From NCBI GenBank assembly GCA_937919685.1, contig CALFOM010000119.1:1-59415 (forward strand): a DNA stretch of 59,415 nucleotides. The letters run 5' to 3'. Within the stretch, counting starts at the first letter, position 1; every line of letters starts with the position of its first letter. The notes below the pieces were generated by a model. That model had not been told where the DNA came from. It was given only the letters and a program-made list of their open reading frames with translations, and did no database searches. This stretch comes from an uncultured Phycisphaera sp. (GTDB lineage Bacteria; Planctomycetota; Phycisphaerae; Phycisphaerales; SM1A02). A program made the translations under genes and the position numbers. This document shows, piece after piece, positions 45,484 to 50,618 of the stretch.

Positions 45484-45500
45484 TCGAGGAGATCCCGATC

Positions 45501-46139
45501 ATGAAGAATACTACCCTTGCCGGCATCGTCGCCAGCACCATCGCCGGCGGCCTACTGGCGGTCAACGTACTTGATGCAGCCGCTCCGGACGTCCGGAGCG
45601 TCATCGAAACCGCTCGCGCTTCGGTCGCGGCGTCGTTGTCGGCTCATTGTGAGATTCCCTGTGGAATCTACGACGACCACGCCGAAGTCGAGCGGATGCG
45701 GCTGGACGCGAGGACGATTCAGAAGGCTTCCGCACAGATCGTAGCCTTGTCGAAGGACGTTCCGATCTCGAGCAACGGGGCCCATCTGAACACCATCGCT
45801 CGATGGGCCATGATCAAGGAGGAGCATGGTCGAAAACTCCAAAACACCGTCGCGTGGTATTTCCTGGCTCAGCGGGTAAAGGCGCCTGCGGCTGGCTCGG
45901 GTGATGCGGCTCGAGAGAAGTATCACGGGCAGTTGGCGGCATTCCACCGAATCTCGGTCGGGGCGATGAAGGCGGCTCAGAACCTTGATCCCGCCGCTAC
46001 CGAAGAACTGCTGGCCGCGATCGAAGCGATCGCGCCGTGGTATCCGGCAAACAAGGGGGCCGGGTCTGCGATCCTTCCGGACGATCATCTCGCACTCGAT
46101 GCCGCGGCCGATTCATGGCGTTCCAATCCCGGCGGTTGA
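45501..46139 (+). CDS. sodN: Nickel superoxide dismutase precursor with long leader
   Basis: 212 residues from ATG 45501, with GAGGAG 9 nt upstream. At residues 49-58 is HCEIPCGIYD, the Ni-hook signature HCxxPCGxY. After cleavage the new His1, with Cys2 and Cys6, would bind Ni, and Tyr9 would gate the site. Downstream helices (RLDARTIQKASAQIVALSKD, then MIKEEHGRKLQNTVAWYFLA) match the four-helix bundle. SodN converts superoxide to O2 and H2O2. The leader is 48 residues with a hydrophobic core (LAGIVASTIAGGLLAVNVL), much longer than the about 14-residue Streptomyces propeptide, with LSA before the His. No SodX-like peptidase gene is near. A terminator follows at 46186. Confidence 0.85.
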   Translation: MKNTTLAGIVASTIAGGLLAVNVLDAAAPDVRSVIETARASVAASLSAHCEIPCGIYDDHAEVERMRLDARTIQKASAQIVALSKDVPISSNGAHLNTIARWAMIKEEHGRKLQNTVAWYFLAQRVKAPAAGSGDAAREKYHGQLAAFHRISVGAMKAAQNLDPAATEELLAAIEAIAPWYPANKGAGSAILPDDHLALDAAADSWRSNPGG

Positions 46140-48125: not shown

Positions 48126-50618
48126 ATGAGATCGAACCTCTTCGCCGGATTTCACGCCGTCGCTCTTCGGCTCGTCGCGGTCGGCATCGCGGTGCTGGTC
48201 ATCCGCGACGTGGCGCCTGGCCAAGGCGCTCCCGGAGAGGTCCCCGATCCGATGGGCCTTCGCGAGGTGAACGATCTGCTCGACCGATATCTCGAGGTGG
48301 GTCCTTCAGAGCGGCTGGTGGTCGAGGCGATTCACGACGACTATCTCGCGGATTTCGCCCGGATCCGGGACGACGAGATCGCCGAATTTCTAGAGTTTGG
48401 AAGAGTCCTGCGGGCCCCCGCCGGTCGCGCGGCGACCAACTTCATGCCTTCTCTGGACGCATTGAAGGCCTACGTGGAATCGTGGCGGACTGCTGTCTTG
48501 CTGGTCCATCGCCTCGATGATCGGTTCTTCGCCTCGTTGTCGGCGTCGCTCGGAGACGATCCCACGGCCGGCGTCGAGCGGGCAAGGCTGGTCCGCCGAC
48601 GACGGGCCAATGCGTCGTCAGCCATGGGTGGGGGGATCCTCCCGGATTCGGGCCTCGACGAAGCATTCTGGTTGATCGAGCCGACGGTGGCGGAGGTCGC
48701 CGCGGTGGACGACGTCCTTCGTGGGCTCGAGATGGCGGCGCCCCGACTCGTCGAGTCGATTGCAGAACGATCGGTGGAAGCGGTCTTGGAAGTGGCCCAG
48801 CAACTGTCCGAGGCAGGTTACGGCGACCTCTCCGACGAGGACATGAACGGCGATGGAGCGAGCAGCCCCGATCGCGAGCGGGTTCAGGCAATGATGGAGG
48901 TGATTTCCCAGGTCTATGCCGAGAGTATGGGCAAGGTGCTCGAATCACGGGAGAAGCTCGCGGATCGGGAAGTCGACGCCGCTCGATCGCTGCGAGGCCG
49001 ACTCGATCCGGACCGTTGGGTCTTGGTCAAACGACGCTGGGCGTCTCGGTCGTTTCCGGAGGCGGGTATTCAAGACAGTCCGTTCCGACCGAACGTACCT
49101 CGGATCGCCCGCAAGGTCGTCGAGCTCCTGACCCCGGAATCCGACGACGGTGCTGCGGTCGAGGAGATTCTGACCGGGTGGTATCGAAATGACGACATGA
49201 TCACTGATCGAATGATCGAGGCGGGACGGGCGACCGTAAGAGCCATGCTCGAGGGGATGCTCTCGATGGGCGAGTCGGGATTCGAGGATTCCGTGTTGCC
49301 GCTCGTCGAGTCACGAACCGCCCTTGGGCAGCGGACGATCGAATCACTGCTCGTTCTGCTTCCGGAGGACCTCCGAACGAAGCTGCTTGCCGGCGAGGCG
49401 ATCCCCGTGGACACGGAGGAGTCGCTCCGTCGAATCCCCGGTGAAGGCGTCGTTGTCGCCGCCGATGCGATTCCGCACGAGCATCCACCGTCCGGTCCGA
49501 TCGAAGGATCGTCGCAAGCCGTCAATCCAATTTCGATCGACGAGCTGGGAACGATGCTCGAGATCCTGCGTCTGGACGAGGCCAGCCGAAACATCGCACG
49601 CTCCCTCCACGTTGACTATCTCGACGACTGGTCCAAGGGAGTGACGCCGATCCTCGATCGGGCGGCGGCGCGAACACTCTGGGCCGACGGTGAGGCGTTC
49701 GGTATCGAGGCCTTGGCGCAGTGCGATGATCATCGAGCAGCAGTGGGAACGGCAATCGAACTCGATGATCGTCTGTTCGCGGACTTCGCCGTGGCGTTCG
49801 GAACCGCGATCCCCGATCACGGTCTCGACGCGGTTCGACTCCAGCGAATCTTCGATCGATCCCTCGCTTCGCGACCGCTTCTGAGTGAGTTTCTCACCTC
49901 GGGCCCCGAGCCCGTGGAGGCGAGTCCCTTCGAGATCATCGCGTCGCTCCACTTCGATCCCGCGACCCGGGCCATCGCGGAGGCGGCATTGCTTCCCGCG
50001 ACGGCGGAAATCCTTGCGGCCTACGACGGCATCGATCTGATCCGCCTCGCCCAGGCACGACAAGAAATCGTCGATTCGGTCGATTTGAATAACGCCGAGT
50101 TGGACTACGAAGCGTTCATCCAGGCACGTTTCAATCGGAGAATCCTCGCGAATGCCGAATCCGATCGACGTCGATTGAAGACCGAAACGGCCCTGATTGA
50201 GGTGGTGCTTCCGGCGCTCGCGCATCGGCCCGTCCTTGAACTTCGAATGGAGATGCTCGACCGTGCCCTCCCGATCCAGAGGGAGTCTGCATCGTTGGAC
50301 GTCGTACGGCGAACGTTGCGGCTGCCCGAGCTGGACTCAGCGCGGATGGGGCGGATCGAGGCCGTCCTGCTCGAGCATCTTGTAGAGGAGCAGAAGCTCA
50401 TCGATCGGCTGCAGGTGCTGCGTCTTGAGATGTGGCGCATGCCGGACGTTGTCGCGATCGAAGGGGGCGTTCGGTCGACGTTCGATGCCGAACAGGCTCG
50501 AGGCCAGGAGATCGGGAAGATCGTGTTTCGACGGAATGAACTTCGGGAACGGCTGCGGCAGAGGGTGCTCGCAACGTTGTCTCCCGAGCAGGTCGCTCGG
50601 GTGACCGGCGGCGGGTGA
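48126..50618 (+). CDS. Large secreted or membrane-anchored helical protein with internal duplication
   Basis: 830 residues beginning with a signal-like helix (VALRLVAVGIAVLVIRDVAP). The rest is mostly charged alpha-helix. Two halves share blocks in the same order: LVVEAIHDDYLADF (near 65) with IARSLHVDYLDDW (near 490), LLVHRLDDRFFASLSASLGD (near 125) with TAIELDDRLFADFAVAFGTA (near 542), and a third helical pair near 177 and 601. The spacing between blocks is nearly equal, indicating a roughly 425-residue duplication. The C-terminus (NELRERLRQRVLATLSPEQV) recalls Spy/CpxP-like helices only loosely. It ends 33 bp before glpK and could be co-transcribed. No function is proposed. Confidence 0.7.
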   Translation: MRSNLFAGFHAVALRLVAVGIAVLVIRDVAPGQGAPGEVPDPMGLREVNDLLDRYLEVGPSERLVVEAIHDDYLADFARIRDDEIAEFLEFGRVLRAPAGRAATNFMPSLDALKAYVESWRTAVLLVHRLDDRFFASLSASLGDDPTAGVERARLVRRRRANASSAMGGGILPDSGLDEAFWLIEPTVAEVAAVDDVLRGLEMAAPRLVESIAERSVEAVLEVAQQLSEAGYGDLSDEDMNGDGASSPDRERVQAMMEVISQVYAESMGKVLESREKLADREVDAARSLRGRLDPDRWVLVKRRWASRSFPEAGIQDSPFRPNVPRIARKVVELLTPESDDGAAVEEILTGWYRNDDMITDRMIEAGRATVRAMLEGMLSMGESGFEDSVLPLVESRTALGQRTIESLLVLLPEDLRTKLLAGEAIPVDTEESLRRIPGEGVVVAADAIPHEHPPSGPIEGSSQAVNPISIDELGTMLEILRLDEASRNIARSLHVDYLDDWSKGVTPILDRAAARTLWADGEAFGIEALAQCDDHRAAVGTAIELDDRLFADFAVAFGTAIPDHGLDAVRLQRIFDRSLASRPLLSEFLTSGPEPVEASPFEIIASLHFDPATRAIAEAALLPATAEILAAYDGIDLIRLAQARQEIVDSVDLNNAELDYEAFIQARFNRRILANAESDRRRLKTETALIEVVLPALAHRPVLELRMEMLDRALPIQRESASLDVVRRTLRLPELDSARMGRIEAVLLEHLVEEQKLIDRLQVLRLEMWRMPDVVAIEGGVRSTFDAEQARGQEIGKIVFRRNELRERLRQRVLATLSPEQVARVTGGG

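Follow-up and report, generated by a model that had tools for sequence, protein, structure and literature searches.

A nickel superoxide dismutase with a signal-peptide-like leader and a putative propeptide in an uncultured Phycisphaera species

The stretch of DNA analysed here, called the window, comprises 59,415 nucleotides from an uncultured Phycisphaera sp. and encodes a nickel superoxide dismutase (Ni-SOD). Judged by sequence comparison, this enzyme belongs to an export-type clade with an HC[EQ] hook that is independent of SodX. We infer that the protein is exported and that its leader is cut twice. The Sec pathway would export the precursor, signal peptidase I (LepB) would cut right behind the hydrophobic core, at about residues 20-28, and a further envelope protease would remove the remaining ~20 residues. 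The latter could be an endoprotease or a stepwise aminopeptidase and is probably not a member of family S26. Removal of the propeptide would turn His49 into His1, and nickel is predicted to be bound via the N-terminal amine, the amide of Cys50 and the thiolates of Cys50 and Cys54. The enzyme would remove superoxide outside the cytoplasm, a compartment for which no Cu/Zn-SOD was found in the genome; the cytoplasm itself would be served by an Fe/Mn-SOD without leader. To this reading as a whole we assign a probability of about 0.58.

The available text of PMC12933891 lists the N-terminal amine as a nickel ligand of Ni-SOD, and in peptide mimics, according to the accessible part of PMC5722923, N-terminal acetylation abolished activity; replacement of the His side chain did not. 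SodX is described as the cognate or putative peptidase in the accessible parts of PMC3919588 and PMC4284471.

The open reading frame extends from 45501 to 46139 on the forward strand and encodes 212 amino acids. A ribosome-binding motif, GAGGAG (45486..45491, +), is found 9 nt 5' of the ATG, and GAGGA(G) recurs with equal spacing in all eight genus loci printed. The nickel hook, H-C-x-x-P-C-G-x-Y, is present as HCEIPCGIY (residues 49-57; 45645..45671, +) with His49, Cys50 and Cys54, and opens the four-helix Ni-SOD domain (residues 49-185; 45645..46055, +). The family model PF09055 matches residues 46-185 with 95 bits (cut-off 25; profile positions 3-127 of 127); TIGR02753, the equivalog model of canonical SodN, yields 42.7 bits and stays below its cut-off of 90. 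These matches and the eight genus genomes confirm what the original prediction had said, namely that a Ni-SOD with a 48-residue leader is encoded here. Its estimate of some 164 mature residues, more than in the Streptomyces enzyme, also holds: the chain predicted for a cut before His has 164 residues, about 137 in the domain and about 27 in a variable C-terminal tail (residues 186-212; 46056..46136, +), which is poorly ordered in the model described below. Since the canonical planctomycete copies have domains of 131-138 residues in 13/14 cases and of 146 in one, the extra length is mostly this tail. A wrong start codon is ruled out by the upstream GAGGAG, the gap-free alignment of the leaders of eight genus members and purifying selection. 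A start at the internal TTG (codon 46, directly preceding SA|HC) was dropped, as this position is not occupied by a start codon in L024, a relative of the same genus.

The fold is in line with the family assignment. An AlphaFold2 model based on 90 aligned sequences reached a mean pLDDT of 84.3 and a pTM of 0.68, residues 196-212 of the tail being mostly below pLDDT 50. When this model was compared with known structures by VIA, the top seven ranks were all Ni-SODs (Z 13.6-13.9 over 109-113 residues; 13.9 to 1q0d), and the next fold followed at Z 11.5. Helical bundles generally score high in fold comparison; the gap in Z and the hook therefore count for more than Z itself. Foldseek equally ranked a Ni-SOD first (probability 1.00, E 0.017, target TM 0.76), with no match for the model at E 0.001. 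In the fold alignment model residue 52 falls on Ni-SOD residue 3, which places His49 on His1. PDB sequence searches with the window protein gave no match at E 0.01; when E values up to 10 were admitted, the best hit was a Ni-SOD (E 0.26).

The leader (45501-45644, +; the codon of the hook His begins at 45645) has 48 residues in 8/8 genus genomes examined. A long hydrophobic core had been ascribed to it. Such a core exists at about residues 5-24, and its 10-residue mean hydropathy of 2.05 is signal-peptide-like; the other ~24 residues, however, include D, R and E, so that the description does not hold for the entire leader. It is better divided into a predicted signal peptide (residues 1-26; 45501..45578, +), with its cut expected between residues 20 and 28, and a putative propeptide (about residues 27-48, AAPDVRSVIETARASVAASLSA; 45579..45644, +). 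The core is separated from His by 33 residues when its position is taken from the 10-residue window, and by about 24 when the whole hydrophobic stretch is considered. Across eight genus members dN/dS is lowest in the core (residues 49-185; 0.10), followed by residues 27-48 (0.22), residues 1-26 (0.39) and the tail (0.42), which indicates that the leader is translated and under selection. With a value between those of the mature core and the signal peptide, residues 27-48 must be kept for a reason. AlphaFold2 predicts the propeptide to be helical. An amphipathic nature of this helix was not convincing: when seven sequences were shuffled, a fraction of 0.06 to 0.82 of the shuffled versions had a moment at least as large.

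How Ni-SODs are matured in the phylum can be gauged from 392 planctomycete genomes. Ni-SOD occurs in 55 of them, at 58 places. The canonical HCD type accounts for 14 places and has leaders of 9-20 residues, whose 10-residue hydropathy does not exceed 1.58 (13 measurable). In 13/14 a SodX-type match lies 63-422 bp from the canonical sodN, nine times above and four times below the cut-off; the 14th sodN sits at a contig edge. The SodX model TIGR02754 finds a match at E 1e-5 in 78/392 genomes and exceeds its cut-off in nine, and all nine adjoin a canonical HCD-type sodN; the other weak matches are probably different S26 enzymes. The 44 non-canonical places score 59-130 bits, 43 of them reading as HC[EQ], and inspection by eye of their contigs, some of which are short, disclosed a SodX match in 0/44. 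In three genomes (G156, G224 and G244) the two kinds coexist, one gene being a canonical sodN next to SodX and the other an exported-type Ni-SOD that lacks such a neighbour (L111/L132, L107/L141 and L108/L133, respectively); these are natural within-cell controls. Canonical SodN, as found in Streptomyces and in planctomycetes (L103-L116), shares with the window protein the H-C-x-x-P-C-G hook and the four-helix fold. It differs in having an HCD hook, a short leader without hydrophobic core and the adjoining SodX-type gene, whereas the window enzyme has HCE, 48 leader residues, no SodX and a TIGR02753 score below cut-off. The Glu17/Arg47 pair of Streptomyces, which contacts His1 according to the available text of PMC12933891, aligns with mature positions 18 and 61; these are Met (76/106) and His (100/106) in direct-type rows, and Ala and Gln in the canonical L106.

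The non-canonical type is not confined to planctomycetes. When species genomes of bacteria and archaea were scanned, at least 568 relatives emerged; going by record titles, those among the matches listed include Pseudomonadota, Desulfobacterota, Verrucomicrobiota, Bacteroidota, Gemmatimonadota and Marinimicrobia. The best 80 of the at least 568 relatives were retained. In total, hooks were read in 152 sequences; 145 were distinct, 14 canonical and 131 HC[EQ]. The scan used the patterns HC[EQ][VI]PCGI or YF[LVM][TA]QR[VL]K[AP] and the reading the pattern H[CS]..PC, so that the letters they specify are to some extent conserved by design. A simple rule decided on the start codons, and L099 at least seems over-long. 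A hydrophobic 10-residue stretch (mean at least 1.9) was present in 129 of the 131 HC[EQ] leaders read. In 111 leaders the core lies 1-16 residues before His, and in 106 of these A, S, G or T directly precedes it, so that 106/131 leaders have a site resembling those of signal peptidase immediately in front of the hook. In the other 20 the core is 20-35 residues away, and just 12 of them have a small residue at this position (Fisher p 6e-5 for 106/111 versus 12/20, kinship being ignored). These figures suggest that in the direct-type relatives signal peptidase I alone creates His1, without any SodX. The comparison of leaders that the original prediction had recommended thus bears out signal-peptide-like HC[EQ] leaders without SodX, but it places the window core at a distance from His that makes a direct cut unlikely.

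The direct exported type is, in fact, already in print: a query composed of the signal peptide and His of the Roseiconus lacunae Ni-SOD retrieved many Ni-SODs, as reported in the accessible part of PMC12537917. Direct-type enzymes such as that of R. lacunae (WP_230780104.1) or Ferrimonas futtsuensis (L038) share PF09055 and a signal-peptide-like leader with the window protein and, in the phylum sample, likewise have no SodX match on the contig. In them, however, the hook His directly follows the signal-peptidase-like site, whereas about 20 more residues intervene in the window clade, which also has its own changes within the domain. Secreted metal proteins with an N-terminal His (LPMOs, CopC and DUF4198, as treated in the available text of PMC12537917) resemble direct-type Ni-SOD in that export processing frees a His ligand; compared by description only, their domains and metal sites are unrelated. 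Two of the relatives are extended at the C-terminus. One, an HC[EQ] enzyme (L041:4040-4924, +), is fused to the protein G domain of type II secretion (PF08334, 64 bits), which works outside the cytoplasm and so fits an extracytoplasmic place. The other (L156:48-1466, -) carries some 300 additional residues without a Pfam match above cut-off.

In a quick tree the window protein groups with seven relatives from its genus and six further sequences in a clade of 14 rows (SH-aLRT 100). In 13 of their leaders the core is at least 20 residues away from His, in the remaining one (L018) 16. We scored possible cuts with a home-made profile built from 104 direct-type leaders, a class partly chosen by core distance and a small residue before His; the score accordingly measures likeness to that class, not cleavage. 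In leave-one-out runs the His site came out best in 91/104. In the 14 window-clade leaders it never did, the best site being located 10-28 residues upstream; for the window leader it lies 28 residues upstream of His and the second best 20. Since a single cut by signal peptidase would leave about 20 extra residues on the window protein, it is most economical to assume that these are removed in a second step. The tree neighbours of the clade need no such step, which implies that the segment is not required for Ni-SOD as such. Within the domain, mature position 20 is L in 14/14 window-clade rows versus E in 92/106 direct-type rows, and position 111 is A in 13/14 versus K in 104/106; the two changes possibly reflect a lost salt bridge.

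Can a single enzyme do it all? Signal peptidase I might cut directly at SLSA|HC, or LepB might cut twice, the second time at His. The window residues at -1 and -3 (A and L) are permitted, the direct-type relatives are apparently cut at His, and LepB is the sole S26 ORF found. Moreover, a small residue (A, G or S) precedes His in 12 of the 14 clade members, compared with 54% within the segment; this excess (p 0.015 ignoring kinship; 6/7 lineages, p 0.10) is a slight point in favour of cleavage at His by a LepB-like enzyme and to that extent counts against two steps. Yet the core of the window leader ends at least 24 residues off, as opposed to 1-16 in most export-type leaders, the His-site scores of the window clade are so low that at most 2/104 direct-type leaders match them, and His is preceded by Ile in L021 and by Leu in L018. 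We therefore consider this explanation, and with it cleavage of the window protein by signal peptidase I at LSA|H, unlikely. The original prediction had pointed out that the LSA ending fits signal peptidase I. Cleavage there is not supported, the better-scoring sites lying upstream, and the ending is not diagnostic anyway: VSA, ASA or AEA occurs at the same place in canonical leaders linked to SodX. These canonical endings lend some plausibility to a cytoplasmic or membrane-bound enzyme whose SodX escaped detection or was not assembled, the genome being 97% complete and split into 254 contigs. But no SodX exceeds the cut-off in the window genome and its 60 relatives (0/61; weaker matches in two; 18/61 with Ni-SOD), the same model does detect SodX beside canonical sodN in the phylum, and the window leader is signal-peptide-like, which canonical leaders are not. 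Of all the explanations weighed, it is the least probable.

More unorthodox is the idea that the propeptide is never removed, so that the hook works with an internal His and altered chemistry, or that Ni-SOD function is lost. It could draw on the missing second protease, which did not show up among the sodN neighbours, on the variety of residues before His (the window clade has A, G, S, I and L, a second set of sequences V, L, W, F and R) and on the propeptide being more conserved than the signal peptide (dN/dS 0.22 versus 0.39). The second set consists of ten rows (L143, L102, L151, L152, L153, L044, L065, L041, L059 and L147), mostly planctomycete and five of them from family f38; the core is at least 20 residues away in 6/10, and the residue in front of His, which is V, L, W, F or R, would not be explained by any signal peptidase I site. 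Against the idea, H, C, P, C and G are kept in 24/24 rows of both sets, although the reading pattern required most of these letters, and the hook pattern is readable at 57 of the 58 places of the independent, Pfam-based count in the phylum, the last being a contig-end fragment. Blocked N-termini, too, were inactive in the peptide mimics mentioned (PMC5722923, accessible part). We consider the idea improbable, somewhat more so than a direct cut at His, and judge no differently the narrower version in which both sets keep the propeptide and hold nickel by a hook with an internal His. It may be added that a flavobacterial sequence (L086, Flavobacteriaceae) has some 19-29 extra residues between signal peptide and hook and EELF before His.

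Active-site chemistry with an internal hook His is not known to us from any Ni-SOD. Removal of the propeptide behind a signal peptidase cut stays our preferred reading. Whether the propeptide arose more than once is a different matter. The quick tree needs three changes, and separate origins were considered; the alternative, window clade and second set as one clade, survived the AU test (p-AU 0.76), and the constrained tree even scored higher.

Which protease might complete the maturation? The genome (3.45 Mb) contains a single Ni-SOD and one Fe/Mn-SOD, the likely start of which, MAFTLPDLPY, shows no leader; Cu/Zn-SOD found no match. The search for an S26- or SodX-like peptidase that had been proposed as a check found no SodX and one S26 ORF. 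The latter, 562 residues long with the S26 domain in pieces, is presumably LepB, and it also contains the genome's top TIGR02754 match, which at 12.2 bits is far below the cut-off of 63.25. A Pfam scan of nine window ORFs neighbouring sodN revealed no peptidase, two of the nine being without any family; the absence of an adjacent SodX, as originally predicted, is thereby corroborated. The window also contains an ORF of 830 residues (48126-50618, +) that begins like a signal peptide; Pfam yielded nothing for it at E 0.01. In the window's genus sodN is accompanied by rpsL, rpsG and a ThiF family gene; other clade members have different neighbours. No linked propeptide protease emerged from the ORFs around sodN when the window and 11 related loci were cross-compared (4/12 sources printed). 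A second S26 enzyme was discarded as a candidate, since S26 matches fall into one ORF per genome in 11/11 window-clade genomes, among 37 searched. This points to another envelope protease or stepwise trimming. The original prediction had left the choice between an exported Ni-SOD matured by the Sec pathway and an unlinked protease. By sequence comparison the export-type character without SodX is supported and signal peptidase I at LSA|H is not; an unlinked protease is the better of the two options, the only S26 ORF found being LepB-like.

Searches of open-licence papers brought up none recognisable as treating a Ni-SOD whose signal peptide is followed by a propeptide. In the accessible part of PMC8346466 the cyanobacterial enzyme is called cytoplasmic, and its use is doubted in strains without sodX. 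The absence of SodX should, however, not be taken as inactivity of Ni-SOD. If our reading is true, signal peptidase I followed by a propeptide protease outside family S26 would represent a third route of maturation. The comparison points to a large group spanning several phyla that would expose its nickel ligand by export processing. The propeptide-bearing clade, finally, makes it possible to ask whether Ni-SOD needs its His at the N-terminus and, should this be the case, which envelope protease sets it free.
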